Positions 1,508 through 17,480 of a stretch of DNA of 35,347 nt are shown one piece after another. Made by a program: the position numbers and the translations under genes. Every line of letters starts with the position of its first letter. The first letter of the stretch is position 1. The notes under the pieces were generated by a model. That model searched no databases and had not been told where the DNA came from. It was given only the letters and a program-made list of their open reading frames with translations. Source of the stretch: a virus; IMG/VR virus record IMGVR_UViG_3300030104_001765, positions 1 to 35,347 of that record. One strand, 5' to 3'.

Positions 1508-1527
1508 AACTTTGACCAGTCAATATT
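1508..1527. promoter_or_regulatory. 20-bp palindromic operator, copy 1
   Basis: AACTTTGAC-CA-GTCAATATT: the right arm matches the consensus exactly, the left arm has two changes. It lies directly upstream of the Shine-Dalgarno site of the leftward gene starting at 1497. Confidence 0.75.
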
Positions 1528-2595: not shown

Positions 2596-2864
2596 AATGG
2601 TATCTCATCTTCAAAGACTTCCACTTCTTCTTCCTTAATCTCAGGAAGTTCAACAGAAACATATTTATATATCTTTCCATCTTTAGAAGTCCTGTCCCAC
2701 ATTGCAACACTTACTGAAATGTCTTGATTGGCTTTCGCTCTCTCGACCAACTCTTTCAATAGAGTTTTGCTCAGTTCAATCTTGCCTGTGAAGTCAGGAT
2801 GATTCTTTGCTTTTTTATAGGTGTTCGCAAATACTGCACCTTCAACCTTAATTCGATCACTCAT
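2592..2864 (-). CDS. Candidate single-stranded DNA-binding protein with SSB-like acidic tail
   Basis: A 90-residue protein whose last residues are EVFEDEIPF. An acidic tail ending Ile-Pro-Phe is the hallmark of bacterial SSB, where it docks partner proteins. The body (residues 5-70) has beta-type segments (VEGAVFANTY, ISVSVAMWDR, KIYKYVSVELP), compatible with a short OB fold, but I see no clear sequence match to known SSB. Its place directly after the Sak gene and before the methyltransferase-containing tail of the operon fits an ssDNA-binding role. DNA binding itself is not shown by the sequence. Confidence 0.7.
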   Translation of the reverse strand: MSDRIKVEGAVFANTYKKAKNHPDFTGKIELSKTLLKELVERAKANQDISVSVAMWDRTSKDGKIYKYVSVELPEIKEEEVEVFEDEIPF

Positions 2865-3555: not shown

Positions 3556-3568
3556 AGTAATCTCCTCT

Positions 3569-3588
3569 AATATTGACTGGTCATTATT
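3569..3588. promoter_or_regulatory. 20-bp palindromic operator, copy 2
   Basis: AATATTGAC-TG-GTCATTATT, one mismatch to the consensus. It lies between the exonuclease stop and the Sak ribosome-binding site and overlaps the exonuclease stop codon. Confidence 0.85.
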
Positions 3589-5622: not shown

Positions 5623-7389
5623 ATGGATGTAAGCACCAATCTTCAAAACGAATTATTATCAATATCAAAAAGCCTAGATTTCGGCAGTCACAAAATCAAA
5701 TGTCCTTCGTGTAGTTCAACCCGAAAGAAAAACAGATCAGACAGACCATTATCAATCACAGTTTCTTCAGATTGTGCTTTGTATCGTTGTCATCATTGTG
5801 GCATCGAGGGTAGGGTTTCGGAAAGACATACGCTCATGACAGCTCAAAACAAAAATATTTTTAAGGAGTTGGACACTACTGTTTTCAAGACCGACAATAC
5901 TGCGAAAGACTGGTTGATGGATAGAGGGATATCAGAAGAAGTGATTGAGAAGTTTGGGATTATCTTCTCGAAACATAAGTTCAATGGAAGTGGTGAGTTG
6001 CCGAGCGTTGGTTTTCCATACAAGAAAGATGGTGTGACTTATGCGATCAAGTGGAGATCAGCAAGTGATGAACACAAATACTTCACGCAAACAAAAGGCG
6101 GTGCAAAAACTTTTTACAACTTGCCAGAAAAACTCAATGGGCAGAAAAGAATAATAATTGCAGAGGGAGAGATGGATGTCTTGAGTCTAGCGACTGCGGG
6201 AATAGGGTTCGGTGAAGATGAACATAATACTCTCATTGTATCAGTACCAAATGGTGCGCCATCGAAAGTAAAAAACGATACAGAAGATGACAAGAAGTAC
6301 GATTATCTTCGTGATGCAGAAACGATCTTGTCAAATATTGACCAGTCAATCTTGCTGACCGATCAAGATACTGCGGGTGATTCTTTAAAGGAAGTGTTGG
6401 GAAGAAGGATTGGAAAAGCCAAGTCTTACGAGGTTGATCTCGGACAATACAAGGATGTAAATGAAGTCTTAATGACAGGCGGTACAGATAAGATTGTTGA
6501 TGCGATAGAGAATGCAACACCATTACCACTTGCGGGATTGAATACCATCTACACCTACAAAGATTCAATACAGAAGCTATACGATCATGGATATCCAAAA
6601 GGTGTGCAGTTGGGATTGCCATCATTGGATAAGCTGATCAGCTTTAATTCTTCTAATTTATATGTGGTGACAGGCTATCCTTCGCATGGTAAATCAGAAT
6701 TGGTTGATGAGATAACCATACGACTTGCAAAACAGGGAATGAAAACTTGCTTTGCATCATTTGAGAAACCACCACAGCTTCATGCATTGCAGTTGGCATC
6801 TAAGATTGTTGGGAAGCCATTCTTCAAAGGCAAAGAAAACAGAATGAATCAGGAAGAGATGGAATATGCTTTGGAGTTTATTGAGAACAACTTTGTGTTC
6901 CAAGACCACCAAGCGGGAAGTCCTTTCACGATTGAGGGAATATTAGACTTTGCATCAAGCGCATTACTCAGAGCAGATACATCTGTCCTAGTGATTGATC
7001 CATTTAACTTTATAGACATCAAACAAGGTAATCAGTTGTTGACTGAAGCGATCAATAAGATGCTTACTAAAGTCACTCAATGGGCGAAGCAAACTCAGTC
7101 TATTGTTTTGTTTGTGGCTCATCCCGCAAAACCCGCAAACAGGGACAATCTAGTTGCTACAGGTCTTGACATAGCGGGATCAATATCTTGGTACACTAAA
7201 GCGGATTTTCTTCTAAGCGTTGTTAGAAATGACAACGATACTGACGTTCATGTTCAAAAGGTTCGTTGGAATTTTCAAGGCAGTCAGGGGGTTGCTAAGT
7301 TGCGCTATGACCTTAATAGTGGTAGATTTGATGAAATCTCAGAGGACATGGGCTTTGACGAAGATTACGAATGGACAACAGACTTCTAA
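5623..7389 (+). CDS. Bifunctional DNA primase-helicase (T7 gp4-like)
   Basis: A 588-residue enzyme expected to unwind the fork and make primers. The N-terminal zinc-binding domain has Cys27/Cys30 (CPSC) and Cys56/Cys59 (CHHC). A TOPRIM segment lies near residues 176-192 (IIIAEGEMDVLSLATAG), with further acidic residues in the LLTDQDTAGDSL segment near residue 245. The C-terminal DnaB-type helicase has Walker A GYPSHGKS (351-358) and Walker B VIDP (457-460), followed by a VLFVAHPAKP segment (His loop). Length and domain order match T7 gp4/Twinkle. A copy of the 20-bp palindrome (6334-6353) sits inside the coding sequence, spelling SNIDQSI. No DNA polymerase is visible next to it. Confidence 0.95.
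   Translation: MDVSTNLQNELLSISKSLDFGSHKIKCPSCSSTRKKNRSDRPLSITVSSDCALYRCHHCGIEGRVSERHTLMTAQNKNIFKELDTTVFKTDNTAKDWLMDRGISEEVIEKFGIIFSKHKFNGSGELPSVGFPYKKDGVTYAIKWRSASDEHKYFTQTKGGAKTFYNLPEKLNGQKRIIIAEGEMDVLSLATAGIGFGEDEHNTLIVSVPNGAPSKVKNDTEDDKKYDYLRDAETILSNIDQSILLTDQDTAGDSLKEVLGRRIGKAKSYEVDLGQYKDVNEVLMTGGTDKIVDAIENATPLPLAGLNTIYTYKDSIQKLYDHGYPKGVQLGLPSLDKLISFNSSNLYVVTGYPSHGKSELVDEITIRLAKQGMKTCFASFEKPPQLHALQLASKIVGKPFFKGKENRMNQEEMEYALEFIENNFVFQDHQAGSPFTIEGILDFASSALLRADTSVLVIDPFNFIDIKQGNQLLTEAINKMLTKVTQWAKQTQSIVLFVAHPAKPANRDNLVATGLDIAGSISWYTKADFLLSVVRNDNDTDVHVQKVRWNFQGSQGVAKLRYDLNSGRFDEISEDMGFDEDYEWTTDF
6334..6353. promoter_or_regulatory. 20-bp palindromic operator, copy 3 (inside primase-helicase)
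   Basis: AATATTGAC-CA-GTCAATCTT, one mismatch in the right arm. This and copy 4 are the copies lying well inside protein-coding sequence; both encode Asn-Ile-Asp-Gln-Ser. It may be an intragenic binding site or a chance match constrained by the protein. Confidence 0.55.
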
Positions 7390-7885
7390 GATTGTCTTTA
7401 ATGAATTAGGCAATAAAGAGTTAGCATCAAGACATTCTTTCTCTCTCAGAAAGGGAGAGAATAGTCCTTTTCACCACATGAAAGTCACTGACCAAGTGCC
7501 AATCGACAAACTCTTAATAGAAAAAAAAATCACAGTAGATCAGCACCATGTTGGTGAGAAATATACAGAAATAATTTTCAAGTCTGGTGCAAATGTTGGA
7601 AGCCCTTCTTGGGAGTTTCGTGATATGAAAAATAATTTTAAACCACCATCTCCGCCAACCCGCACTTTGATTTTGTCTGGTGTGCAAAAATATTTACAAA
7701 AACACGCAAGTCCGAAAGTTGAAATTTTATTGTGGAATGTGGTCGCCAAAGAAAAAACCCCAAGAGATCATGAGATCGACCCCTTGAGGTTTGGCTTGGA
7801 TGTCCTATCAGATTATTGGTTTCCCAAAAGAAAAACCCAACAAGAAGTTAAGCTACAAAAAATGATTCTGCATTCGCTTCTTTAG
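7331..7885 (+). CDS. Unidentified protein downstream of primase-helicase
   Basis: About 184 residues. The frame overlaps the end of the helicase. Start candidates are ATG 7331 (59-base overlap, weak ribosome site) and TTG 7355, which has AGAGGA 8 bases upstream. The body reads HSFSLRKGENSPFHHMKVTDQ, then DQHHVGEKYTEIIFKSG, then LWNVVAKEKTPRDHEIDPLRFGLDVLSDYW. The order of blocks faintly recalls DUF6456 proteins of Alphaproteobacteria (an AGxRxR-like helix, then a long alpha-helical C-terminus), but I would not assign it. It ends convergently, overlapping the end of the ribbon-helix-helix gene by 4 bases. Confidence 0.7.
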   Translation: MKSQRTWALTKITNGQQTSKIVFNELGNKELASRHSFSLRKGENSPFHHMKVTDQVPIDKLLIEKKITVDQHHVGEKYTEIIFKSGANVGSPSWEFRDMKNNFKPPSPPTRTLILSGVQKYLQKHASPKVEILLWNVVAKEKTPRDHEIDPLRFGLDVLSDYWFPKRKTQQEVKLQKMILHSLL

Positions 7886-8253
7886 AAAGGAACATTATTA
7901 TCATCTGATTCATCGAGAGTGTTGTTTTCTTTCCTTTCTTCTTCTACTCTTTCTAAACTAGATTTTGCTTCATCAATCATTTCTTCTCTTAAAGATTCAG
8001 GTTCAATCTTGTGAGCGTTATCTAATATAATCTTATCCCTTGTTTCTGTGTTTGGATAGTTTGATTGTATTCTTCCCGCTAGGTGTTCTTCCATAGCATA
8101 TCCATGTTCTCGATAGCAGTCTTGGATAAGCTGTCTGATCTGAGAAGTCATGCTTCTGTTATAGGCACTAGAGATCACCTTGAGTTTTTGGTGATCTTCT
8201 TGTGATAATCTGCACATAAAGTTATGTGTTTCTTCTTTTTGTAATTCAGTCAT
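7882..8253 (-). CDS. Ribbon-helix-helix (Arc/MetJ-like) DNA-binding protein with SSB-like C-terminal tail
   Basis: A 123-residue protein. Residues about 10-50 (HNFMCRLSQEDHQKLKVISSA, then NRSMTSQIRQLIQD) have the strand-helix-turn-helix layout of ribbon-helix-helix repressors, which bind palindromes as dimers. The middle is helical and charged. The C-terminus ends DESDDNNVPF, an acidic run closing with Pro-Phe, resembling the SSB tail and the tail of the protein at 2592-2864. A strong AAGGAG precedes ATG 8253. A palindromic operator copy (8266-8285) lies just upstream, so autoregulation is plausible. It is one candidate to bind that palindrome. Confidence 0.8.
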   Translation of the reverse strand: MTELQKEETHNFMCRLSQEDHQKLKVISSAYNRSMTSQIRQLIQDCYREHGYAMEEHLAGRIQSNYPNTETRDKIILDNAHKIEPESLREEMIDEAKSSLERVEEERKENNTLDESDDNNVPF

Positions 8254-8561
8254 GTCGCACTCCTTAATTTTGACTGGTCAATATTAGATACTTTTACCAC
8301 CTCAACAAAGTTGGATGCGAAATCGTATCGTTTGTTTTCTGCTAGGAACTCCAATGCCTTTCTTAGTTGCTCTTCGCTGAAATATAGTTTGCGGTCAAAG
8401 ATGGCATCTTGTCCATGTTCAATCGCCCTGTACTCATTATCATAAACATAGCATTCTGTTTTATAACCCCAATGTCCATTGATCTGAGTCTTGTAATGAA
8501 TGATGGTTGCATAAACCCCTCTATCAAAAAACTGTTTAATCTCTTCTCTTTGCTCGGTCAT
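8250..8561 (-). CDS. Hypothetical protein, 103 residues
   Basis: Start ATG 8561 (MTEQREEIKQFFDRG), overlapping the upstream TGA as ATGA. An alpha/beta protein: FDRGVYATIIHYKTQINGHW, then a Tyr-rich segment (YVYDNEYRAIEHG), then helix EEQLRKALEFLAENK. No recognised family. Its last 12 codons contain a copy of the 20-bp palindrome. Confidence 0.78.
   Translation of the reverse strand: MTEQREEIKQFFDRGVYATIIHYKTQINGHWGYKTECYVYDNEYRAIEHGQDAIFDRKLYFSEEQLRKALEFLAENKRYDFASNFVEVVKVSNIDQSKLRSAT
8266..8285. promoter_or_regulatory. 20-bp palindromic operator, copy 4
   Basis: AATTTTGAC-TG-GTCAATATT, one mismatch. It sits directly upstream of the AAGGAG site of the ribbon-helix-helix gene and inside the 3' end of the preceding gene. 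Confidence 0.8.
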
Positions 8562-8791
8562 GCTACACCCCAATCATAATAAAAGGATTCTTCTTTGTTC
8601 TTCTTAATATGGCACTCTTTGCATTGATGTTGATAGCTGACTTCATCTGTTCTTCTGTCGTATGAATCAACCTGTATTCCCTCTTCGTGATACAAAAGAT
8701 CAACCCCTTGTGCCACTTCACACTCAATGTTTAAAGGATGTTGGTCTATCACCATTTGCTTTTTGCAGTCATCACAAAAATATTTAATCAT
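8558..8791 (-). CDS. Small zinc-binding protein, 77 residues
   Basis: Begins MIKYFCDDCKKQM and has a second pair CKEC near residue 59 (HQCKECHIKKNK), so two CxxC knuckles about 50 residues apart suit one zinc ribbon. The region between has an IECEVAQGVDLLYHEEG stretch. It starts within the end of the upstream HTH gene (8-base overlap) and its stop overlaps the next start. Function unknown. Confidence 0.8.
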   Translation of the reverse strand: MIKYFCDDCKKQMVIDQHPLNIECEVAQGVDLLYHEEGIQVDSYDRRTDEVSYQHQCKECHIKKNKEESFYYDWGVA

Positions 8792-9488
8792 CGTTTACTC
8801 CTTGTTTTTGTTTTTGTAATTCTCTTTGCAAGTCTTTGATCTTGCTTCTGTAAGATTTCATATCTTCTCTTATCTTCTTTATCCTCTGCTCTTTTTTCGA
8901 CAGAGCATCTAATTGTTCTCGGTCTATTAAATTTCTCCAGTCATCTAACTCTAGGATTTCAGCAATCTTTGTCATCGTTTCCTTGTTGACTGCTTTTCTA
9001 ACAGTTGATTTTGATGTGCCGAGTCTTGCATAGATTGTTTTATGAAAGCCACAAATTTTTACCAACTTGTGAACATTGCCTACGATTGGATGCATATCAC
9101 ATATCTTTTTGAGTAGATGAACATCTACAGGATATTTTCTTTCTTTTTCTGTTCTTACATGACCTCTGTGATCTATGTACTGACCTTTTTCCTCATCAAT
9201 ATTAAACTCTCTATTGATTAGAAACCTTTCTACATCTTGCCACTCAAAAGGTTTTTTGCTTGGCTTTTTTCTCTCTGTTAATAGTCCTTCTTGTTGCATC
9301 TTTCCTTTTTCATCTAACAGGGCAACATATTCAGGATCAGCACCTTCGTTTTTTGTTTTTAAAATGGAGTTTGTTTCCTCTGCTTCTTGCAAAACAGACA
9401 GATTGCAGTGAGCACTAGGAGTTGAATAATCTGTAGGAAGATTAGGCTCAATCTGTGATGGTGTTAGGATGTCTTTTTCTTTACTCAT
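8784..9488 (-). CDS. Helix-turn-helix/coiled-coil protein, candidate phage regulator
   Basis: A 234-residue protein. Residues 1-75 look disordered. Residues about 80-125 hold a basic segment (ERFLINREFNIDEE, then RGHVRTEKERKYP). Residues about 140-187 (KLVKICGFHKTIYARLG, then TSKSTVRKAVNKETMTKIAE) resemble a Cro/C1-type HTH, with SKSTVRKAV as the recognition-helix candidate. Residues 188-230 are a predicted coiled coil (KIREDMKSYRSKIKDLQREL), suiting a dimer. It is first in its operon, with a promoter at 9524-9552 and the only exact, non-extended copy of the 20-bp palindrome 133 bases upstream. This makes it the first candidate for the palindrome-binding regulator; the link is inference. Confidence 0.75.
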   Translation of the reverse strand: MSKEKDILTPSQIEPNLPTDYSTPSAHCNLSVLQEAEETNSILKTKNEGADPEYVALLDEKGKMQQEGLLTERKKPSKKPFEWQDVERFLINREFNIDEEKGQYIDHRGHVRTEKERKYPVDVHLLKKICDMHPIVGNVHKLVKICGFHKTIYARLGTSKSTVRKAVNKETMTKIAEILELDDWRNLIDREQLDALSKKEQRIKKIREDMKSYRSKIKDLQRELQKQKQGVNDD

Positions 9489-9523
9489 GATAATTACTCT
9501 GAATGCGTTTATATTTAATACAA

Positions 9524-9552
9524 ATTATAATGATTTAACCAAAATAATGCAA
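9524..9552 (-). promoter_or_regulatory. Sigma70-type promoter for the HTH operon
   Basis: Minus strand: TTGCAT (9552-9547), 17-base spacer, consensus TATAAT (9529-9524). The expected start is about 30 bases upstream of ATG 9488. Confidence 0.7.
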
Positions 9553-9607
9553 TCATAAAGATATCAAAAGACTAACTCAAAATAAGTATGACAATAACTT
9601 CTTGGTA

Positions 9608-9620
9608 TCTTGGTGCGTGT
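9608..9620 (-). repeat. 13-bp element shared by the two leftward units (copy 1)
   Basis: ACACGCACCAAGA on the minus strand, followed by a second ACCAAG. The same 13 bases occur at 17664-17676. Both lie upstream of the first gene of a leftward unit. This copy abuts operator copy 5. Confidence 0.6.
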
Positions 9621-9640
9621 AATATTGACTGGTCAATATT
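9621..9640. promoter_or_regulatory. 20-bp palindromic operator, copy 5 (exact consensus)
   Basis: AATATTGAC-TG-GTCAATATT with both 9-base arms perfect. Intergenic, about 70 bases upstream of the -35 box of the HTH operon promoter. Confidence 0.9.
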
Positions 9641-9833
9641 TAGTTAAAGGTAGTGTTGGAATATATACAGACCAAACCAAGCAGATTTTTTCCCCCAGCA
9701 AAACAAAAATATTTTTAGTTTTACACGGCTCTGGCAAAAAAGCCGTCAGCTCCCAGACCAAAAAAAATATTTTAGATTCTGACACTATTTTCACCCAATC
9801 TCCAGGACCACAAAATTTAGACCAAAAAAAAAA
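9641..9833. other. Non-coding part of the 9489-9896 intergenic region
   Basis: No credible gene. The region is AT-rich with three AGACCAAA repeats (9669, 9755, 9819), a hairpin ACGGCT/AGCCGT (9725-9730 with 9741-9746) and several T or A tracts around AAATATTTTT. It separates the terminator of the 10-17 kb cluster from the promoter of the HTH operon. Confidence 0.6.
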
Positions 9834-9877
9834 GACCCTACCGATCCACATCTAAAAAGACATAGACCGATAGGGTC
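9834..9877 (-). terminator. Intrinsic terminator ending the 9.9-17.5 kb leftward cluster
   Basis: A 12-bp imperfect stem (GACCCTACCGAT at 9834-9845 with ACCGATAGGGTC at 9866-9877, two mismatches). On the minus strand it is followed by ten consecutive T (A tract 9824-9833). It lies just after the last gene of the cluster (stop at 9897). On the plus strand the tail is TTTTATTT, so it may work both ways. Confidence 0.85.
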
Positions 9878-9896
9878 AAGTTTTATTTATTTATAA

Positions 9897-10082
9897 CTAG
9901 CGATTGTAAGTTTCTGTCCAGTTGATGAAAATTTGTTGTGCTTCTTTTTTAGAAACACAAAAATTATTTTGCAACCAAGATGGAGCACCGAACATATTGA
10001 TTATTCCTGACTCTCTAAGATCATCTAAAATTACATTCCAGTTTTCTTGATCTTGTTCGTCTATCAAAATTTCGGTACTCAT
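9897..10082 (-). CDS. Small hypothetical protein, 61 residues
   Basis: MSTEILIDEQDQENWNVI, then DDLRESGIINMFGAPSWLQ, then VSKKEAQQIFINWTETY. The second half reads like a compact helical fold; SKKEAQQIFINW could be a DNA-contact helix. The start overlaps the upstream stop (ATGA). Last gene before the terminator at 9834-9877. Similar small NMFGAP-type proteins are common in phages; function unknown. Confidence 0.78.
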   Translation of the reverse strand: MSTEILIDEQDQENWNVILDDLRESGIINMFGAPSWLQNNFCVSKKEAQQIFINWTETYNR

Positions 10083-10414
10083 GATGACACCGCCTTATCA
10101 AGATCGATTTCTTTCAAGCCATCTAAATAATCTTTGGCATCTTTCCTTGCCACTGGATTATAAACAACAGAGTCATCGGGCAATGTATAACTTTTCGAAC
10201 CACTAGAATTACCATTATGAATTAGTTCATCATAATAAGAATTAAGAGCAAAAGAATCTCTTTCTTCTTTGGAATGAAATATCCAAAAGAAATCATCTCT
10301 GGCAAATTCTTTATAGTTATCTATAAAGTGATCCACAGAACATTGATACTTTTCATGGTACATATTGTCGTACCCATAAATAGTTGCGACAAAGGTTTTA
10401 TTTTTCTTACTCAT
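10079..10414 (-). CDS. Hypothetical protein, 111 residues
   Basis: MSKKNKTFVATIYGYDNMY, aromatic and acidic (FARDDFFWIFHSKEERDSF), with a flexible Ser/Gly segment (NGNSSGSKSY) and an acidic C-terminus. No family recognised. Its leader is TATATAGGAGACAAATT before ATG, nearly the same as that of other genes in this cluster, and is preceded by the hairpin at 10442-10468 and the larger structure at 10524-10603. Confidence 0.78.
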   Translation of the reverse strand: MSKKNKTFVATIYGYDNMYHEKYQCSVDHFIDNYKEFARDDFFWIFHSKEERDSFALNSYYDELIHNGNSSGSKSYTLPDDSVVYNPVARKDAKDYLDGLKEIDLDKAVSS

Positions 10415-10441
10415 AATTTGTCTCCTATATAGTAAGATTAA

Positions 10442-10468
10442 ATTAAGGCGAATGAATCGCCCATTAAT
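10442..10468 (-). ncRNA. 5'-leader hairpin of the gene at 10414
   Basis: Minus-strand RNA UUAAUGGGCGA-UUCAU-UCGCCUUAA: 5-bp GGCGA/UCGCC stem extended by UUAA/UUAA across a 2-base bulge. It uses the same UUAAUGGG and CGCCUUAA strands as the leader hairpin at 12320-12358, but in the opposite order. Confidence 0.5.
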
Positions 10469-10523
10469 AGAAATCCACCCAAAACTAGCATTTTCATACT
10501 AATTCTAGGAAAAATGGACTCCT

Positions 10524-10603
10524 TATTTACGTTCTAATGCATTTTCTCATGTCGGGTAATGCCTAGACATCACCCAAAATGAGTGTTTTTCAAAACGTAA
10601 ATA
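10524..10603 (-). ncRNA. Nested structured RNA element upstream of the gene at 10414
   Basis: Three nested helices: UAUUUACGUU/AACGUAAAUA (10 bp, 10524-10533 with 10594-10603), CUCAU/AUGAG, and GGGUGAUG/CAUUACCC with a UCUAGG loop. One pair in the innermost helix is G-U on the minus strand and would be A-C on the plus strand, which points to the leftward RNA. It lies between the stop at 10669 and the leader of the next gene. No known class recognised. Confidence 0.55.
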
Positions 10604-10624
10604 GGGAAACCATAGAGGAAATCA

Positions 10625-10644
10625 AATATTGACTGGTCATTATT
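10625..10644. promoter_or_regulatory. 20-bp palindromic operator, copy 6
   Basis: AATATTGAC-TG-GTCATTATT, one mismatch. A half-site ACCAGTCAATAT follows at 10651-10662. On the minus strand the copy runs straight into TTGATT (10625-10620), a possible -35 box with only a weak -10 (TATTTA) 16 bases on. Confidence 0.85.
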
Positions 10645-10668
10645 AAAACAACCAGTCAATATCATCAC

Positions 10669-11331
10669 TTATCCCCAACGCAATCCAAACTTATCAGCAC
10701 AAACTTTTCCATAACCTACTTCAATAGATCGGTCATCGGACAGTTGCCTATGACAAGCAAAACAGTTGCCAGTGAGTTTTCCATATTCACTTGCGACTTT
10801 CTCAGGATCACTAACCAATCTATTTAATAGATCGATTAGTTTTTCCTGAACCTCTTTTCCATCTTTTGATAAGTAAAGATCGCCATCGGTTTCGATACGC
10901 CCAAAGTAAATATTTTCATATCCCCACTTCCCATTGCTGAGAAATAGTTTTCCTCTGTGCTTAGACTTGTTTGATGCTTTGGATATTTTTATATCTTGGT
11001 CATCAAGTCTCAGCCACAATTTAGGAAATGATTTATTCTTTGGTGATACCGCTCGTCTGAGCATAGAATAAACACCATTTATATTAGGCAGTTTTTTCTC
11101 AGGTTTTTCTTGCTTTGGATTCTGAAGCTGATCGACAAGTTTCAGTACCCAATGCCATTGTTTGTCAGACAATTCACCCTTCTTTTCAAAGTGCTTGAAA
11201 AGACTTTCAGCAAAGCCAGTAGTTTTTCCATAAAACTTATCGTCATCAAGAAATTCTTTTAGCTTGTGAATATTTTCCCTTTTGATTTTTACAATCCATT
11301 CTGTCCATAAACCACCGATTACCGCACTCAT
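10669..11331 (-). CDS. DUF6011-like zinc-binding phage protein
   Basis: A 220-residue protein. The C-terminal 34 residues (TGNCFACHRQLSDDRSIEVG, then YGKVCADKFG) match the DUF6011 pattern: two knuckle Cys (190, 193), Leu, Asp-Ser and a G-x-G-x-x-C (Cys211). The central part (KLWLRLDDQDIKISKAS, then GKLFLSNGKWG) is beta-rich; the N-terminus is helical with a FYGKTTGFAESLFKHFEKKG segment. DUF6011 is a zinc-binding module found in phage and bacterial proteins of unknown function. The start overlaps the upstream stop by 4 bases. Confidence 0.85.
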   Translation of the reverse strand: MSAVIGGLWTEWIVKIKRENIHKLKEFLDDDKFYGKTTGFAESLFKHFEKKGELSDKQWHWVLKLVDQLQNPKQEKPEKKLPNINGVYSMLRRAVSPKNKSFPKLWLRLDDQDIKISKASNKSKHRGKLFLSNGKWGYENIYFGRIETDGDLYLSKDGKEVQEKLIDLLNRLVSDPEKVASEYGKLTGNCFACHRQLSDDRSIEVGYGKVCADKFGLRWG

Positions 11332-11609
11332 GATGGATCACCATTTTGATCAAGTTTAGTTAAACACTCAATCCTTATAGTTGGATTCCATCTGAAATCA
11401 ATAACTGGTCGCATATCGGTTTCATGATAAGTATGAGAATCATCAAATGATTTTTTACCATCTGAATTTGCCATCTCATAAGCTGAATCCCAACAATCAG
11501 TTTGAACAGTTATTTTTTTGTATAGTAAATATTCTTTCTCAAAAACATAAGTTTTCAAGTCAGATTTTGATTTATCTACATTTTCGATTGCTACTTCTTT
11601 TTCACTCAT
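11328..11609 (-). CDS. Hypothetical protein, 93 residues
   Basis: MSEKEVAIENVDKSKSDLKT, then YVFEKEYLLYKKITVQTDCW, then TYHETDMRPVIDFRW. Probably a small beta-rich domain after a disordered acidic start. A TGGAGAACC site precedes ATG 11609, which overlaps the preceding stop. No family recognised. Confidence 0.78.
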   Translation of the reverse strand: MSEKEVAIENVDKSKSDLKTYVFEKEYLLYKKITVQTDCWDSAYEMANSDGKKSFDDSHTYHETDMRPVIDFRWNPTIRIECLTKLDQNGDPS

Positions 11610-11947
11610 GATGGTTCTCCAGTAAATGAACTACCAAAGAAAGGAGTCTTACAGACTGCACCATTAGTTGTCCTTTTAACTGTATCAAAAGCACCAGTCT
11701 GCAATTCTAATTTTCCAATCAGTTTTGCCACCTCAAAGCTAAGATTTCTCATAAACAAATCCGCTTCGATATTTGATACTTCAATAACTCCTTCTTTCTT
11801 TAAGATAGATTGAGCAGTTTCACTTCTTATGTCTAAACCATGAAACTCGGTTTCGTAAATGTTCTCAACAAGATCATACAGCTTGTTAAGAATCATTAGC
11901 CTTGCGAGGTTCTTAGGGCTATCAACATTTTTAGAATGATATTTCAT
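11606..11947 (-). CDS. Hypothetical helical protein, 113 residues
   Basis: MKYHSKNVDSPKNLARLMIL, then NKLYDLVENIYETEF, then FMRNLSFEVAKLIGKLELQT: mostly amphipathic helices. The C-terminal part (TTNGAVCKTPFFGSSF) is probably extended. The leader AATGGGAGATAAATT before the ATG follows the hammerhead ribozyme at 11995-12055, so this gene would be at the 5' end of a cleaved mRNA. Function unknown. Confidence 0.78.
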   Translation of the reverse strand: MKYHSKNVDSPKNLARLMILNKLYDLVENIYETEFHGLDIRSETAQSILKKEGVIEVSNIEADLFMRNLSFEVAKLIGKLELQTGAFDTVKRTTNGAVCKTPFFGSSFTGEPS

Positions 11948-11994
11948 AATTTATCTCCCATTATGAAAGTTAATTTAGTCAGCATTACACTGAC

Positions 11995-12055
11995 ACCAAG
12001 ACCCAATCTTTCGATTGGGTTTCGCTCAGATTTTCACTGAGTCTCTTCAGTTGGT
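11995..12055 (-). ncRNA. Type I hammerhead ribozyme A
   Basis: Minus-strand RNA, starting at the base after the TAA stop of the gene at 12056. Stem I: ACCAA (12055-12051) with UUGGU (11999-11995). Core CUGAAGA (12050-12044). Stem II: G plus CUCAG with CUGAG plus C, one bulged A, loop UGAAAAU. GAA (12023-12021). Stem III: ACCCAAUC/GAUUGGGU closed by a GAAA tetraloop. Cleavage dinucleotide U-C, with the cut expected between 12000 and 11999. Stem I is the open helix, so type I. Compared with ribozyme B, stem I differs by a compensating C-G for U-A change. Confidence 0.88.
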
Positions 12056-12289
12056 TTAAAGATTATAGTATTTTGCCCCTCTAGGATTTTCTTCAACCGC
12101 AGTTTCTATGACTGACTCAAGATACTTTACTATCTCACTCAATAGAAAAACTTTAGTGTCCTTACTGTCTTTAGGCATGAAAACAGTACCATTGGTTCTG
12201 TTCACATACATAAGACTATCTAAGACACTTTCCAGTTTCTCAATATCTACAGGGTCTACTACTACTTCTTTTAATGATTTTTCACTCAT
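12056..12289 (-). CDS. Hypothetical protein, 77 residues
   Basis: MSEKSLKEVVVDPVDIEKLE, then SVLDSLMYVNRTNGTVFMPK, then SEIVKYLESVIETA. A small, mostly helical acidic protein. The leader AATTAGGAGAAAAATT matches the cluster-wide form. Its stop codon directly abuts ribozyme A. No family recognised. Confidence 0.75.
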   Translation of the reverse strand: MSEKSLKEVVVDPVDIEKLESVLDSLMYVNRTNGTVFMPKDSKDTKVFLLSEIVKYLESVIETAVEENPRGAKYYNL

Positions 12290-12319
12290 AATTTTTCTCC
12301 TAATTTGAGTTTGGGATAA

Positions 12320-12358
12320 TTCCCATTAATAACACCGAAATGATGCTATTAAGGCGAA
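12320..12358 (-). ncRNA. 5'-leader hairpin of the gene at 12289
   Basis: Minus-strand RNA UUCGCCUUAAUAGCA (12358-12344) with UGUUAUUAAUGGGAA (12334-12320): 13 of 15 positions pair, including one G-U. Homologous in sequence and position to the hairpin at 17511-17550. In both, the distal strand is followed by UUA-CCC and then AGGAGAAAAA before the start codon. Confidence 0.65.
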
Positions 12359-12393
12359 TCTCACAAAAAATGGCTTCACCATTGCTCGTCTAA

Positions 12394-12450
12394 TGCAAAG
12401 TTAGGAGGGTAGTAAGGGCATAACATACCCTTAAAACCCCCCTTTTTGCA
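12394..12450 (-). ncRNA. Nested stem structure between the VWA gene and the gene at 12289
   Basis: Three nested 6-bp helices: TGCAAA/TTTGCA (12394-12399 with 12445-12450), GGAGGG/CCCCCC (12404-12409 with 12437-12442) and TAAGGG/CCCTTA (12413-12418 with 12428-12433). The middle helix has one A-C on the plus strand that is G-U on the minus strand, favouring leftward RNA. GTTAGGA (12400) can alternatively pair with TCCTAAC (12455-12461). TTAGGAG (12401-12407) makes the leftward RNA carry CUCCUAA, complementary to the next gene's Shine-Dalgarno. It may also act as a terminator after the VWA gene. Confidence 0.55.
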
Positions 12451-12456
12451 CCAATC

Positions 12457-13881
12457 CTAACTAGCTAAATCTAGATCAGATCGCAGACAATGTGGCGGGA
12501 GATGAATTGCTTCACCAAACTCAGTTTGATCCACACCCCATGTCATTTCGATTGTCGCCCATAGGACTGGTATATCAGGCTCATGTTTTGTTTTTACTGG
12601 GTAAAATTCTCCATCAGTAAAAACAATTAGACCCTGTAGATCGGCAACATCATCGGTATAGTTATTCACCAATTCAAAGATGGGAGTTAATTCAGTTCCA
12701 CCGCCACCTCTAGGAGTGATATCTAATAAAGATTCACCCGCAGAGATGTCAACTTCATCCCAATAATTCCCTTCTTCGTCATGATGAACTATGGTGCTAC
12801 ACCAACAAACTTTGACCTTCTCAATGTTGCATTGCTCAACCAACCCCTGTATCTGAGACATGAATCCATCCATGTAATAAGAAGTTGATCCTGATACATC
12901 AACACCGATTGCCAAAGTGCCACCCATAACTGAACTGACCCTACTCGGAAGATAGTTTCCTTTCTTGTAAGTTTTGTCTTTCCATATATGGTTTCTATGT
13001 GGTCGATTCCAAGATGTTTGATCAGGGAAAACGCTGACCAACCAATCCTGAATTTTCTCAAGATAGTTGGCAGTTTCCACATCAATTTCATTCACCCTTC
13101 GGTTGAATGAATTGTCATAACCATCACCGCAAGATCGACTCATGCTGTCAGCCAATCGGACTTTGTTAGCCAATTCTCTTTGAGCATCAATATTTTCTTG
13201 CTTGGTTAATGGTTTTCCATCTTGGTTCACTGCATCCCAAACACCACCCGCTTGGCTAGTGTTAGATGGTTTACCTTCATTAGCATTCGCTAAATCATCA
13301 CCATCTTTTTTATCACCACCATTGCTTTGATCTTGATCATTAGAATCACCATCAGAATCACCATCGGATGATCCATCTGATTGATCGCCATCGTCAGAAG
13401 AATTATCAGCCTGATCATTTTCTTGATCTTTCTGATCTTTTTCCTCAAGCAATATAGCGTAGATTTCGTCAGCAGTTTTGCCATCATATTTGCTGTCGTA
13501 CAATGCATCCTTTGGCATCTTCCAATAGGATATTGCACCTGATCTATTTAACTCAGCATTGATTGCATAATCAGTTGCGATATTCCATAACTCAGGATTC
13601 CTATCATTCCTTCTGAGGTGATGCGCCCAAGTGCAATGCAACGCTTCATGCATTAGAACAAATTCTAATTCTTCATGACTCGATTCATTGCAAAAGGATT
13701 CACACCAAAAGATATGAGTACCATCGGTTGCCATTGTAGAACATACATCCTTTGAAACTTCTTTCAGAATCAAAGGTGTAATCATCGAAGCCATACCAAG
13801 ATGACCCTTTTGGATGATCGAGGTTCTAGCTTTGACGATTTTGTGTTCTGCCACTTTACTGGCAGTTGTTTGCTTATCCAT
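12457..13881 (-). CDS. VWA/metallopeptidase-like (DUF2201/CobT-like) protein, MoxR partner
   Basis: A 474-residue protein. The N-terminal domain has HEALH (78-82) with CTWAHH after it, the zincin-like HExxH signature of DUF2201-type proteins. Residues about 145-210 are an extreme Asp/Ser/Gly/Gln linker. The C-terminal VWA domain has the MIDAS motif DVSGS (328-332), the GGGGTELTP block (threonine site) and FTDG (Asp423). Such proteins are partners of MoxR-type AAA ATPases, here encoded at 15228-16316, and resemble the CobS/CobT chelatase pairs annotated in phages. Probable role: an ATP-driven remodelling machine of unknown target. Leader: TATATAGGAGAAAATT. Confidence 0.88.
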   Translation of the reverse strand: MDKQTTASKVAEHKIVKARTSIIQKGHLGMASMITPLILKEVSKDVCSTMATDGTHIFWCESFCNESSHEELEFVLMHEALHCTWAHHLRRNDRNPELWNIATDYAINAELNRSGAISYWKMPKDALYDSKYDGKTADEIYAILLEEKDQKDQENDQADNSSDDGDQSDGSSDGDSDGDSNDQDQSNGGDKKDGDDLANANEGKPSNTSQAGGVWDAVNQDGKPLTKQENIDAQRELANKVRLADSMSRSCGDGYDNSFNRRVNEIDVETANYLEKIQDWLVSVFPDQTSWNRPHRNHIWKDKTYKKGNYLPSRVSSVMGGTLAIGVDVSGSTSYYMDGFMSQIQGLVEQCNIEKVKVCWCSTIVHHDEEGNYWDEVDISAGESLLDITPRGGGGTELTPIFELVNNYTDDVADLQGLIVFTDGEFYPVKTKHEPDIPVLWATIEMTWGVDQTEFGEAIHLPPHCLRSDLDLAS

Positions 13882-13927
13882 AATTTTCTCCTATATATAA
13901 ACAAATTTTGCAGACAGAATGCCTACA

Positions 13928-13963
13928 TCAAAACAAATATTGACTGGTCAATACTTGTTTTGA
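13928..13963. promoter_or_regulatory. 20-bp palindromic operator, copy 7, inside a 36-bp inverted repeat
   Basis: The core at 13936-13955 is AATATTGAC-TG-GTCAATACT. The flanks extend the symmetry (TCAAAACAA on the left, TTGTTTTGA on the right), giving 17-base arms with one mismatch. It lies in the long leader of the VWA gene, about 47 bases before the start. The RNA would form a strong hairpin. Downstream on the minus strand UGUAGGC/GUCUGCA (13911-13929) can also pair using G-U. Confidence 0.8.
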
Positions 13964-13991
13964 TTTAAACCTTCTGAAAATATTTTTATTT

Positions 13992-14041
13992 CTCAGGGAG
14001 CTGAGATGTTGGTTTTGGGGAGTCTTGCGACTCCCCACCAA
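13992..14041 (-). ncRNA. Tandem hairpins after the gene at 14043
   Basis: Minus-strand RNA: GGGGAGUC-GCAA-GACUCCCC (14036-14017), a perfect 8-bp stem with a GNRA tetraloop extended by UUGG/CCAA, then UCUCAG-CUCC-CUGAGA (13991-14006). It begins 2 bases after the stop of the gene at 14043. No T tract follows, so it is not a standard terminator; it may protect 3' ends or be an RNase III site. Confidence 0.6.
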
Positions 14042-14042
14042 A

Positions 14043-15038
14043 CTAAAATAATCCTTTAGCAGTGTCAGAAACTTTGACCTTCTTTTCAGCCTGTCTCAGT
14101 TTCTTAGCTGTAGATTTTCTAGCCTTGTCATCCTTCTTGAGATTGTCTTGAGATTTTGCATCTATGATGTCTTTTCTCAAGTCAGCTACAGTTGATCTTA
14201 GATCATCATCATCACCCAATAGATATTCATCTACTGAATCAAGCATATCTCTAAGGTCGTTATAGCTACCATCCCTCAATGGATTCTTGGTTTTGTTTTT
14301 GGGATCAAACTTTTCCAATCCTCTTGCTAACCTTTGAATTCCATCAATCAGCTTTTTGGCAGTATGCCTATCAGCATTTTTCTTTACATTATTTTCTTTT
14401 TCTTGGTAATCAGAAATAATGTTGGATTTAAGGTTAGAAGATATTTGAACTCTAATATCATCAGAATTGAATTCATTTATTTTCCCTTCTTCAAAAATAA
14501 AAATATATCTTGCTCTCAATTCATCAGGAGAAAGATAATCTGAACGATCAAACATCTTTCCTAAACCAATGTTTTTCTGCCTGACTTCTTCAATCGCATC
14601 GTCATAATCATTAATGATTTTTTCGACTGCTTTTTCAAAGTCTCTTTGATATTTTTTTACTTCTTCTTTAAACCAATCAGTCTTTTTGGATGGAAGCAAT
14701 CTCCAATCACCCTTTTTGACTTGTCTTCCTTTGTCTCCAAAGATATAGGATTTTCCTTCACCCAAAACTTGATCATCAGCATCAATCCACGGAAGAGTAT
14801 GTTTATACATAACTTGATTCCTAAATTTTTTGCCAATTTTGATCGGTTCTGCAAGACGTTCTTTTTTCAATAAATGCTTCTGTACTTTTACTAAATCAGG
14901 ATCAGCATCTTTACTATCTGCTAATTCATTCCTAGTTTGAGTATCAGATTTTATCCCACTATAAGTTTTTATAGTGACTCGAACTTTTGTGCAAGATTCT
15001 GATAGTGCAGTTTTCTTGCTATTGTTTTTCTTACTCAT
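14043..15038 (-). CDS. Helical middle protein of the MoxR-VWA cluster (DUF3150-like?)
   Basis: A 331-residue protein; start MSKKNNSKKTALSE at ATG 15038 after ATGGAGAATCAAT. N-terminal part: VRVTIKTYSGIKSD, then VQKHLLKKERL, then HTLPWIDADDQVL. The middle is long-helical (FKEEVKKYQRDFEKAVEKII, then DYLSPDELRARYIFIF), and the C-terminus is lysine-rich. The layout (WSG/YSG start, LPW segment, helix pair around Y-P/S-x-E-E-L) recalls the DUF3150-type proteins often encoded between phage CobS-like and CobT-like genes, which is also its position here. The family call is tentative; membership in the MoxR-VWA module rests on position. Confidence 0.75.
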   Translation of the reverse strand: MSKKNNSKKTALSESCTKVRVTIKTYSGIKSDTQTRNELADSKDADPDLVKVQKHLLKKERLAEPIKIGKKFRNQVMYKHTLPWIDADDQVLGEGKSYIFGDKGRQVKKGDWRLLPSKKTDWFKEEVKKYQRDFEKAVEKIINDYDDAIEEVRQKNIGLGKMFDRSDYLSPDELRARYIFIFEEGKINEFNSDDIRVQISSNLKSNIISDYQEKENNVKKNADRHTAKKLIDGIQRLARGLEKFDPKNKTKNPLRDGSYNDLRDMLDSVDEYLLGDDDDLRSTVADLRKDIIDAKSQDNLKKDDKARKSTAKKLRQAEKKVKVSDTAKGLF

Positions 15039-15076
15039 ATTGATTCTCCATAAGTAAAATTTAATTAACTGATTCA

Positions 15077-15130
15077 TAATCCTTTCGAAGTATCTCATCA
15101 GGCATGACTACTAATGTCATACGAGGATTA
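15077..15130 (-). ncRNA. Type III hammerhead ribozyme C
   Basis: Minus-strand RNA. Stem III (open): UAAUCCU (15130-15124) with AGGAUUA (15083-15077). C17 at 15123, cut expected between 15123 and 15122. Stem I: GUAUGAC (15122-15116) with GUCAUGC (15108-15102), one U-G pair, loop AUUAGUA. Core CUGAUGA (15101-15095). Stem II is minimal: GA/UC closing a UACU loop (15094-15087). GAA (15086-15084). It sits between the three-way structure at 15129-15207 and the ribosome site of the gene at 15038; two bases are shared with that structure's outer helix. Confidence 0.9.
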
Positions 15131-15207
15131 CACAATGGCGGATAAGGTATAGGAGAATCAAAAAAGACCCTTATCCCCTGATAAAAATCAGGTAGTGCCA
15201 TTGTGTA
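15129..15207 (-). ncRNA. Three-way-junction RNA element with anti-Shine-Dalgarno loop
   Basis: Outer helix TACACAATGGC/GCCATTGTGTA (15129-15139 with 15197-15207, 11 bp, perfect). Inside it are GGATAAGG/CCTTATCC (15140-15147 with 15169-15176) and CCTGAT/ATCAGG (15177-15182 with 15187-15192, 4-base loop). Helices abut without linkers except TAGT at 15193-15196. On the leftward RNA the larger loop contains UUGAUUCUCC (15161-15152), a 10-base perfect complement of GGAGAAUCAA in the leader of the next gene (15049-15040) and of the gene at 16912 (16922-16913). It begins 20 bases after the MoxR stop. Confidence 0.7.
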
Positions 15208-15227
15208 TCAAGTTTTGATTAGATCAC

Positions 15228-16316
15228 TTAAACCAAGATGTCTTGGTTTTTAATGTGCCAATCAATGAAAACCGAAGTTTCCTTGAATTTTGATTCTTTA
15301 GTTGTGAGTGCTTTGACAAACAAAACTGAAAACTCTTTAGCATCAAAACGCTCTATATAAGTCAGAGCATTTTCAAATTGCTTTGGAGTTTCAACTGCAT
15401 TGATCAGAGATGCAACACTTGCATATTGCAGTTCTGTCCTTTCAGGCAGTTTTGCTGTTTTTGGACTCTTGAGAATTTTAGTTGGCGATTCCAATTCATT
15501 TTGGAATGCACAAAAAGTTTCAAACTCTCTAGCGACTGTTTCACCCAAGTAAGATTCCAACACTGGTTGTATCAGTGATCGTCTAAGATCACCAGTCAGC
15601 ATTTCACTTACTTGATGCCAAATTCTTGGTGCGGGAAATCCACCCTCTTTCTTAGCATCAAATTGATGTAAGAATTGAGGTTGGAAAGTTAAGAATGCCA
15701 GTATGTCAGCATTGATATCATTCCCATATCCCCACTCTAACCACTCATTCGTATCAGGAACTAATTCCAAAGTTAAACAAGCAGATTGAAAGTGAGTCAA
15801 GATTCTTTGTGCACCCGCTCTATCGGTTGAATGATTACCCGCAAGGATAATTTTCCAACCAGTAGGCAAAACATAATCAGTGCCAATGCGACCTTCAAAA
15901 GTCAGTTGGCGAATTGTGTTTTGTAGTGCGGGAGTTGCTTGGGCTACTTCATCCAAAAACAAAAGACCTTTACTGTTTTTATCTGTAGGCAGATTATCCA
16001 GTAATGCCCTTTTCTGACTGCCAGTCTTATCATCGATATATGGCAATCCTGAAAAGTCTATTGGCTCATACATGGCGACCCTAAAATCAGCGAAACCAAA
16101 TTCATTTTTCTTTGGCTTCACATTATAGATTGGTCTATCCTTATGATCCCTGATCAGTTTCAGTTTAGATTTGTCAGCAATAGTCTGAGCAATCTCAAAG
16201 ACTAGAGAGGATTTACCGATAGCGGGACTTCCTTTTATGAAAGGCACACTGCTCGATGCATTCTCTAAGTTATGTAAGATTACTTCGACTAGTTCACTAG
16301 CTTTTAATTTACTCAT
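15228..16316 (-). CDS. MoxR-like AAA+ ATPase (CobS-like)
   Basis: A 362-residue ATPase. Walker A GSPAIGKSS (29-37), Walker B LLFLDE (118-123), and a sensor-1 region IILAGN with Asn161 followed by HSTDRAGA. The insert before Walker B (EPIDFSGLPYIDD, 84-96) is typical of MoxR-type proteins. The C-terminal lid is longer than in minimal MoxR. MoxR ATPases drive partner VWA proteins in chelatase-like or chaperone-like remodelling; the partner is probably the VWA protein two genes downstream. Leader CATAGGAGAAAATT before ATG 16316; hammerhead ribozyme D lies just upstream. Confidence 0.92.
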   Translation of the reverse strand: MSKLKASELVEVILHNLENASSSVPFIKGSPAIGKSSLVFEIAQTIADKSKLKLIRDHKDRPIYNVKPKKNEFGFADFRVAMYEPIDFSGLPYIDDKTGSQKRALLDNLPTDKNSKGLLFLDEVAQATPALQNTIRQLTFEGRIGTDYVLPTGWKIILAGNHSTDRAGAQRILTHFQSACLTLELVPDTNEWLEWGYGNDINADILAFLTFQPQFLHQFDAKKEGGFPAPRIWHQVSEMLTGDLRRSLIQPVLESYLGETVAREFETFCAFQNELESPTKILKSPKTAKLPERTELQYASVASLINAVETPKQFENALTYIERFDAKEFSVLFVKALTTKESKFKETSVFIDWHIKNQDILV

Positions 16317-16348
16317 AATTTTCTCCTATGTTATGTAAATTAGATTGG

Positions 16349-16400
16349 TGCTGTTTCATGCTTTCGCAATCATCAGTAGGAATTACATTCCTATACAGCA
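16349..16400 (-). ncRNA. Type III hammerhead ribozyme D
   Basis: Minus-strand RNA. Stem III (open): UGCUGU (16400-16395) with ACAGCA (16354-16349). A17 at 16394, cut expected between 16394 and 16393. Stem I: UAGGAAU-GUA-AUUCCUA (16393-16377), 7 bp perfect. Core CUGAUGA (16376-16370). Stem II: UUGC-GAAA-GCAU with a GNRA loop; its first pair is U-U instead of the usual G-C, the one non-ideal feature. GAA (16357-16355). It leads into the ribosome site of the MoxR gene. A possible promoter (TTGACC at 16409-16404, TGTAAT at 16387-16382) overlaps it. Confidence 0.84.
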
Positions 16401-16437
16401 AGGGGTCAAATATTGACTGGTCAATATTCAACCCCTT
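16400..16437. promoter_or_regulatory. 20-bp palindromic operator, copy 8, inside a 38-bp inverted repeat
   Basis: The core at 16409-16428 is the exact consensus. The flanks AAGGGGTCA and TCAACCCCTT extend the symmetry to 18-base arms with two mismatches. It lies 10 bases after the stop of the gene at 16448 on the leftward RNA, so it could also fold as a 3' hairpin. On the minus strand it runs into TTGACC. Confidence 0.88.
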
Positions 16438-16447
16438 TGATTATTTA

Positions 16448-16912
16448 TTAAATGCTTTCGTGATGCTTAATGTAAACCAAACATCTTTTATATGCTTCTT
16501 CATATTCATCACAGAAATGATTATCAAAATAAGGATCGTTTATGTCATCGTTATCCCCAAAGTCATCTGAGTAAACCCATGTCGTATAAACATCGTCATC
16601 ACCATCCCAAAACACAGTTAAGTAGCTATGCTTCTTTAGTAGTGCATTGATTTTTCTTCTGAAGCTATACTCAGTCTCAACCTGTTCAATTTCTTTTTTG
16701 AATTGTTTACGACAAGCAACAAGATCATTTATTGATTCTTCATAATCAGCGATTATTTGTTTCAACCTTTTTCTTTCTTTGGTGATTGCTTTATTCACCT
16801 CATCAAGCCTAGACTTAGAAGTTTTATTTTGTGCTGTTAGGTATTGTTTATAGTTATCGTGAACTATCAATTCCCATGTAGGCACATTGAATTTTTTATT
16901 TATTATTTTCAT
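16448..16912 (-). CDS. Hypothetical coiled-coil protein, 154 residues
   Basis: Start ATG 16912 (MKIINKKFNVPTWELIVHD) after ATGGAGAATCAA. In-frame codons further upstream lie inside ribozyme B and are not coding. Residues about 30-75 form a coiled coil (EVNKAITKERKRLKQIIADY, then ESINDLVACRKQFKKEIEQ). The C-terminal part is acidic and aromatic (FWDGDDDVYTTWVYSDDFGD). Function unknown. Confidence 0.78.
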   Translation of the reverse strand: MKIINKKFNVPTWELIVHDNYKQYLTAQNKTSKSRLDEVNKAITKERKRLKQIIADYEESINDLVACRKQFKKEIEQVETEYSFRRKINALLKKHSYLTVFWDGDDDVYTTWVYSDDFGDNDDINDPYFDNHFCDEYEEAYKRCLVYIKHHESI

Positions 16913-16936
16913 TTGATTCTCCATATGAAAGTTATT

Positions 16937-16994
16937 ATCAAGACCCAATCTTTCGATTGGGTTTCGCCTGAGTTTCACAGGCTCATCAGTTGAT
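16937..16994 (-). ncRNA. Type I hammerhead ribozyme B
   Basis: The cleanest of the four. Minus-strand RNA, starting at the base after the TAA stop of the gene at 16995. Stem I: AUCAA (16994-16990) with UUGAU (16941-16937). Core CUGAUGA (16989-16983). Stem II: GCCUG-UGAAACU-CAGGC (16982-16966), 5 bp perfect. GAA (16965-16963). Stem III: ACCCAAUC (16962-16955) with GAUUGGGU (16950-16943), GAAA loop. C17 at 16942, cut expected between 16942 and 16941. The leader of the next gene follows. Confidence 0.93.
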
Positions 16995-17480
16995 TTAAAA
17001 GTCAGCTATTGCATTCAGATCAGTGCCACTAACGAACTCGCTAGATTCAAAAACTTTCTCAGCAAAATCGGGATCAAAACTATCGTCAGATAGTTTCAAT
17101 GTTTGTTCCCAACTGTAGCTAAAATCTGAATCAGTCACATAACAATGCTGATTCTCGTTTTTCCTTCTAACCAAGACTTGCTCATGATTTCTCTGAGCAA
17201 TCCTAAAGTCATAACCTAGTGCATCAAGAATGCCATTGATTCTTTCTCTAGTGGTTGGTGTATGCCATCCGCATAGATCAATAATCTGAGTAGATTTTAA
17301 TCCCTGACATTCAGGCAATGTTGATCTAGTGATTTCAGCTATGCGATTTCCATGCAGATAAAATGTAGCGACTTCATCGTACTTATATCCTACCTTTTGG
17401 ATTTCTACTTCAGTATTAGACTTCTTGTATTGCTCAAAATTCACAAATGCTTCTGAACTTTCTTTAGTAATTTTTCTCAT
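16995..17480 (-). CDS. Hypothetical protein, first gene of the leftward cluster, 161 residues
   Basis: Begins MRKITKESSEAFVNFEQYKK and contains the segments KSNTEVEIQ, TFYLHGNRIAEI and CGWHTPTTRERINGIL. This order (KITKE, KSNT, LYLHGNxIA, a GWxxxTTxERLNGI block) recurs in small phage proteins of unknown function that often lead early clusters. The C-terminal half (FRIAQRNHEQVLVRRKNENQ, then an acidic tail) is more variable. Leader AATAGGAGAAAAAATT. It heads the cluster that contains the ribozymes. Confidence 0.85.
   Translation of the reverse strand: MRKITKESSEAFVNFEQYKKSNTEVEIQKVGYKYDEVATFYLHGNRIAEITRSTLPECQGLKSTQIIDLCGWHTPTTRERINGILDALGYDFRIAQRNHEQVLVRRKNENQHCYVTDSDFSYSWEQTLKLSDDSFDPDFAEKVFESSEFVSGTDLNAIADF

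Follow-up and report, generated by a model that had tools for sequence, protein, structure and literature searches.

The DNA considered here, which we call the window, is the 35,347-nucleotide stretch at positions 1 to 35,347 of the IMG/VR virus record IMGVR_UViG_3300030104_001765. The full record is 60,681 bases long, and its remaining 25 kb are referred to as L019 and L020. On the minus strand, the window carries a leftward gene cluster, ordered A-B-C-D-E-F-G-H-I-J-K, with hammerhead ribozymes at four of its junctions (A/B, B/C, C/D, and F/G), the third of them graded as probable. TerL, capsid, and portal genes are present in the record, so several same-strand hammerheads flank genes in a phage genome. 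The features of the cluster, in its own order, are as follows:

16995..17480, minus strand: gene A, 161 amino acids, Kyano_Gp96-like (PF23790)
16937..16994, minus strand: hammerhead ribozyme 1, type I, with a canonical core and a 5-bp stem I; cut 16942/16941
16448..16912, minus strand: gene B, 154 amino acids, no family assigned
16349..16400, minus strand: hammerhead ribozyme 2, type III, with U.U at 10.1-11.1; cut 16394/16393
15228..16316, minus strand: gene C, 362 amino acids, MoxR-like AAA ATPase (phrog_1297)
15075..15132, minus strand: probable hammerhead ribozyme 3, type III, with a stem II of 2 bp; cut 15123/15122
14043..15038, minus strand: gene D, 331 amino acids, conserved between the MoxR and VWA genes
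12457..13881, minus strand: gene E, 474 amino acids, DUF2201 metallopeptidase-like/VWA protein (phrog_1314)
12056..12289, minus strand: gene F, 77 amino acids
11995..12055, minus strand: hammerhead ribozyme 4, type I, with N7=A and a one-base A bulge in stem II; cut 12000/11999
11978..11994, minus strand: 5' hairpin, beginning 5 nt past the ribozyme 4 cut
11606..11947, minus strand: gene G, 113 amino acids
9897..11609, minus strand: genes H, I (DUF6011), J, and K, with no hammerhead between them
9834..9877 (9877-9834), minus strand: strong intrinsic terminator at the cluster end

The ribozymes were identified with a structure-aware scan that required the CUGANGA core, the GAAA core, an N-U-H cleavage site, and three stems. 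Exactly four hammerheads were returned for the window, with scores of 15.6-19.7, compared with 0.18 matches per window and a top score of 13.5 in dinucleotide shuffles of the window; the same scan found no hammerhead in L019 and L020. All four copies contain the core residues C3-U4-G5-A6-N7-G8-A9, G12-A13-A14, A15.1-U16.1, and H17, and in each of them three helices are joined at the core in type I or type III order. All are located on the minus strand, i.e., the coding strand of the cluster, and each cut falls past the upstream stop codon and ahead of the next Shine-Dalgarno sequence, with stop-to-cut distances of 53 (16942), 54 (16394), 105 (15123), and 56 nt (12000) and cut-to-ATG distances of 29, 77, 84, and 52 nt, respectively. 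An earlier, sequence-only reading of this DNA had proposed four complete hammerhead folds, two of type I and two of type III, all on the coding strand between a stop codon and the next ribosome site; the scan recovered these with the same typing and placement and within 2 bases of the proposed coordinates, and the cut sites that we computed independently were identical to the four predicted.

At gathering cut-offs, Rfam 15, the hammerhead models of which include RF00163, RF00008, RF02275-7, and RF03152, yielded no hammerhead match in the window. With the threshold relaxed to E=10, ribozymes 1 and 4 drew sub-threshold matches to the RAGATH-1 model, of 27.3 and 23.2 bits (not necessarily in that order) against a cut-off of 56.3, and ribozyme 1 (16942) drew one to HH9. 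The sequence-only reading had held that a lack of covariance-model matches above threshold would speak against it; that is formally the outcome, but it is not diagnostic, because the same cut-offs miss every array in eight related loci, one of which contains 16 hammerheads. In that locus, L183 (described below), several copies likewise drew sub-threshold matches to RAGATH-1 (RF03152) and Hammerhead_1 (RF00163), and the best RF00163 score was 31.5 bits against a cut-off of 34. The gathering cut-off is a search setting, rather than a property of the hammerhead class, and is uninformative for these compact copies.

Covariance models were built from hammerheads of other phage contigs (R1 from 36 type III copies and R2 from 25 type I copies), with the exclusion of any copy at least 0.9 similar to those of the window; the resulting E-values are rough. 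R2 matched ribozyme 1 (16942) at 60.4 bits (E=5e-15) and ribozyme 4 (12000) at 46.3 bits (E=7e-11), and R1 matched ribozyme 2 (16394) at 70.1 bits (E=2e-17). Covariation in the two training alignments was 0.75 and 0.67, as compared with at most 0.16 in slid-structure controls, although these values are partly circular because the alignment members were picked by a detector that requires stems. For a non-circular test of pairing, we used exact pattern matches in which nothing but the outer stem and the letters of the core is fixed. In type III, stem I is then unconstrained, and it pairs in 69 of 70 distinct matches, against 2% in shuffles; in type I, the unconstrained stem is stem III, which pairs in 34 of 42 (0.8% in shuffles). 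Across relatives, every stem shows compensatory change around a near-invariant core; for ribozyme 3, this applies to stems I and III only.

Ribozyme 1 starts at the base directly after the stop codon of gene A, at a junction that is also occupied in the related loci L009 and L011, and we judge it almost certain to be active. Ribozyme 4 similarly starts directly after the stop codon of gene F, shares an identical stem III and core segment with ribozyme 1, and has at N7 an A that the consensus permits; its activity is very likely. Ribozyme 2, whose cut leaves stem I as the 5'-terminal hairpin of the MoxR message, is kept in L008, L011, L012, and L013. Beside its core, at 10.1-11.1, U.U replaces the G-C, while ribozymes 1, 3, and 4 have the standard pair. 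Among copies on which the search pattern did not impose it, 16 of type I and 34 of type III have the same U.U, and it looks like a tolerated natural variant for that reason; we would expect ribozyme 2, with high probability, to cleave. Either U.U or A.A at this position is common in this group's copies among the fetched loci, and an earlier survey had filtered such copies out. Ribozyme 3 differs from its relatives in stem II, and its stems I and III keep their pairing through changes in L013, where the counterpart has a core insertion (CUGAAUGA). A 2-bp stem II was called common by Perreault et al. (PMC3088659), and for ribozyme 3 we lean slightly towards activity.

Eleven loci located through the MoxR protein carry hammerheads, mostly at corresponding junctions and with gain, loss, and change of type; protein-free pattern scans added 109 and 60 stretches. 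Loci with at least three hammerheads number 58, in dozens of uncultured phage contigs (one record accounts for three of the loci, and a few other contigs occur twice). A MoxR homologue is encoded in 45 of these 58 loci, as is a VWA homologue (45). Wherever a locus has at least two copies, all of them lie on one strand (85/85), and no hammerhead was found antisense to the MoxR cassette. At a score of at least 14, the fetched loci gave 342 matches, whereas shuffled sequence amounting to 1.48 Mb gave none. The terminase of the phages with the MoxR-VWA cassette is closest to those of cultured pelagiphages (55% to HTVC027P; for L183, 59% to EXVC032P). In the genome collection, the type III pattern had six matches, in scattered metagenome-assembled genomes and one Sphingobacterium.

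Some relatives depart from the arrangement in the window. In L012 and L013, a different, unrelated extra gene is inserted at the MoxR-D (C/D) junction, each then with its own type I hammerhead. In L009 (5886-5975), L010, and L014, the type III hammerhead before MoxR has its stem II replaced by three hairpins, the last of which keeps its pairing through a double change in L014. About 16 type I variants (in L105, L114, L124, L128, L131, L135, L149, L160, L178, L221, L223, L224, L226, L230, L016, and L018) have in stem III a conserved three-way-junction insert, composed of UUAAA, a hairpin with a UA bulge and mostly a GNRA loop, and a second hairpin; this insert may be a docking arm or a natural sensor.

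The extreme case is L183 (record G001), a phage contig with terminase, SU10-type portal, and capsid genes, in which a hammerhead stands ahead of each of 16 consecutive small genes (16/16; 8076-14667). Thirteen copies are of type I with canonical cores (two with a long stem III), two are of type III, and one has a U4C core. Models R1 and R2, for which L183 had supplied two and five training sequences, respectively, detected 14 of them, and two more were found by detectors and sequence reading. A further type III call at 8715 was spurious, being nested in a long type I copy, and was discarded after sequence reading. Leaders in this array are mostly bare and about 20-25 nt long. In L220, a relative (89% in one protein), 10 of 10 genes are preceded by a hammerhead; Rfam cut-offs miss all copies in both loci. 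The L183 array also includes, at 12249-13688, a 479-amino-acid protein with a GHKL-ATPase-like start (sub-threshold) and a HEFGHW metallopeptidase-like motif.

The position of the hammerheads relative to stop and start codons was compared across copies. Type I copies begin right at the stop codon upstream, C3 most often lying five bases past it (49 of 94 placed copies), and a hairpin occurs at most 10 nt beyond the cut in 66 of 103 (24% in shuffles). Type III copies are mostly 24-77 nt away from the stop codon, in 124 of 142 the cut precedes the start codon by 60-89 nt, and stem I is itself the 5' hairpin after the cut. Both types thus leave a short fixed leader, often with a hairpin at or near the 5'-hydroxyl (5'-OH) end.

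Judging by gene order and by the one strong intrinsic terminator, which stands at its end, the cluster would be expressed as one leftward polycistronic transcript. Sigma-70-like promoter matches inside the cluster are fewer than expected by chance, phage-specific promoters being outside that search; the lone terminator and the lack of a promoter excess agree with the suggestion of the sequence-only reading that one polycistronic RNA would be cut. Hammerhead cleavage yields a 5'-OH and a 2',3'-cyclic phosphate. Each hammerhead would fold on leaving RNA polymerase and cut the RNA once at its N-U-H site, and the long message probably cuts itself in this way into short ones. Full cutting would generate five messages, namely A, B, MoxR, D-VWA-F, and G-K; the further suggestion of single-gene units would hold for the first three, but not for D-VWA-F (15122-12000) or G-H-I-J-K, which would remain multi-gene. 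The downstream pieces would carry a short fixed leader behind a 5'-OH, mostly with a hairpin at the 5' end or at most about 5 nt from it (not at A/B), and the upstream pieces would end in a 2',3'-cyclic phosphate, with the type I ribozyme's own hairpins as a 3' cap. At the junctions that have no hammerhead, other ribozyme classes were not detected, even at E=10.

The likeliest benefit would be insulation, i.e., that each gene or block, though part of a common transcript, has a defined leader of its own and is translated and degraded in its own way, which would resemble the synthetic element RiboJ. Perreault et al. (2011, PMC3088659) demonstrated that clustered prophage hammerheads, among them a triple array around ardA, cleave both in vitro and in E. 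coli. In its 5'-end-dependent mode, RNase E is inefficient on RNA with a 5'-OH, though direct entry is common, and a hammerhead-made 5'-OH is apparently not rephosphorylated in E. coli (PMC4191395). In the same species, RiboJ, in which a hairpin follows the hammerhead, increases transcript levels about twofold and protein levels two- to tenfold (PMC6206723). By analogy with this behaviour of RNase E and this effect of RiboJ, we favour an outcome in which the units would be both insulated and stabilised.

Other features of the record were noted. A 16-nt palindrome, TATTGACCAGTCAATA, occurs nine times in the window with at most two mismatches (0.05 expected), at 16411, 13938, 10627, 9623, 8268, 6336, 3571, 1510, and 18218; several of these sites are at gene junctions and within longer hairpins, and the palindrome is a candidate operator, nuclease site, or terminator. 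Between the MoxR stop codon and ribozyme 3 lies a large hairpin (15133-15227, minus strand), the stems of which co-vary among relatives while its loop, GTCTTTTTTGATTYCTCCTATA, is nearly constant. In several relatives, the loop takes the form TTTCTCCTATA, which is exactly complementary to TATAGGAGAAA, the ribosome site of the phage; the loop in the window is one T short. L019 encodes a 381-amino-acid open reading frame with long Thr/Asn repeats (NTNTNT; 6323-7468) and a repetitive one of 1020 amino acids (1190-4252).

Several other explanations were weighed against processing of a shared transcript. The hammerheads might be conditional switches, with cutting gated by translation or by a ligand: most type I copies directly follow or contain the upstream stop codon, where a terminating ribosome would cover them, so that heavy upstream translation would block folding and cutting, and the stem III insert of about 16 variants could sense something. 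The abutment on stop codons may, however, be plain compactness, none of the four copies in the window has the insert, and type III copies mostly stand off from the stop codon, and we regard gating as rather unlikely. Also unlikely, and a shade more so, is that the hammerheads are linkers in gene-plus-ribozyme cassettes that spread as modules, where either the cut shields the neighbours from a new gene or the sequence offers recombination homology only. This would fit both the extra genes of L012 and L013, each accompanied by its own type I copy, and the segment shared by ribozymes 1 and 4; yet the stems have diverged a great deal without losing their pairing, something that recombination homology would not require, and the neighbour-shielding form is compatible with processing, not opposed to it.

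That most of the copies are decayed remnants, or folds that arose by chance and do not catalyse cleavage, appears very improbable; although degenerate copies exist (U4C in L183 and L178; CUGAAUGA in L013) and ribozyme 3 is marginal by model, the compensatory change in every stem, the near-invariant core, and the zero chance matches in 1.48 Mb of shuffled sequence all speak against it. Least probable of all is that RNAs freed by paired cuts are closed into circles by ligation, in the manner of retrozymes and viroids. Several copies do occur in one cluster, and the two kinds of end that cleavage makes are substrates of RtcB; but neither RtcB nor an RNA_ligase family was found in 12 records searched (several of them fragments), the spacers between copies are long and coding, and Perreault et al. 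looked for circles and detected none (PMC3088659).

The reading of the four elements as self-cutting insulators must also be set against a number of observations that weigh on the other side. Ribozyme 3 matched R1 at only E=0.22, has a competing minimum-energy fold, and has only 2 bp in stem II, and mismatches at 10.1-11.1, such as the U.U of ribozyme 2, were rejected by Perreault et al. unless activity had been measured (PMC3088659). Junctions D/E and E/F and all those past G have no hammerhead, so insulation would not be gene by gene, and even close relatives differ, through gain and loss, in which orthologous junctions have a copy. Nine phages that are cultured or named, the majority covered in part, yielded no hammerhead: none in HTVC027P and EXVC032P Baldr (both whole), HTVC023P and 023Pt_psg01 (1-30000 each), or DSL-LC04 (1-50000), and none around MoxR in S-TIM61, PJN101, phage G, and Ebordelon; models R1 and R2 at E 0.01 likewise gave no match in roughly 208 kb of DNA from cultured or named phages. 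Finally, where the host has other nucleases, RNA may be made less stable by a 5'-OH end.

The sequence itself shows the fold, compensatory conservation, strand, junction position, 5' hairpins, and recurrence of these elements. We infer catalysis, a shared transcript, and a benefit to expression, and on balance we think it reasonably likely that the four elements are hammerheads in one leftward phage polycistron, which would cut itself into units with defined 5'-OH leaders and thereby gain insulation. A wider proposal is put forward tentatively, with rather more doubt than confidence: in an uncultured lineage, self-cleavage, and not promoters or protein nucleases, might fix the 5' ends of almost all genes in an operon, in a one-message-per-gene ribozyme system whose genes travel with their own hammerhead, and of which the window's phage would be a partial version.

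The role of bacterial and phage hammerheads has been described as an open question (PMC6155905). Regular arrays with fixed stop and start spacing, which are easily overlooked through Rfam cut-offs, lead to sharp predictions on this role, both for exact 5'-OH positions in metatranscriptomes and for matched active and dead constructs. The sequence-only reading had supposed that hammerheads occur singly and that no such phage operon had been described; both statements are overtaken by Perreault et al. (2011, PMC3088659), who reported clustered prophage hammerheads flanking genes and proposed a role in mRNA processing. Those clusters resemble the present one in having mixed-type hammerheads that lie on one strand of phage DNA and flank one gene or a short block of genes. 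They differ in that the cases tested were tandem or triple arrays with variable genes, whereas here four copies lie in an operon with a conserved MoxR-VWA core, and relatives reach 16 copies, a good many of which have U.U at 10.1-11.1. Neither the arrangement nor the proposal of processing is therefore new; the novelty here lies in the scale and regularity of the arrays. In the open literature (subscription papers being mostly outside our search), no earlier account was found of the array size and regularity, the tie to MoxR-VWA, the U.U variant, or the Rfam blind spot.

Ribozymes 1 and 4 share their type I topology and core with RAGATH-1 (RF03152) and Hammerhead_1 (RF00163), but the phage copies fall below the curated cut-offs, have compact stems, and do not clearly present the model's upstream hairpin; RAGATH is said to have been defined by Weinberg in 2015. 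RiboJ (the sTRSV hammerhead plus a 23-nt hairpin; PMC6206723) has the same order of hammerhead, 5'-terminal hairpin, and ribosome site, and would work alike, with the difference that it is man-made and placed after a promoter, while the phage elements lie between genes. If our reading is correct, these phages use gene-by-gene ribozyme insulators of a kind that synthetic biology built later.

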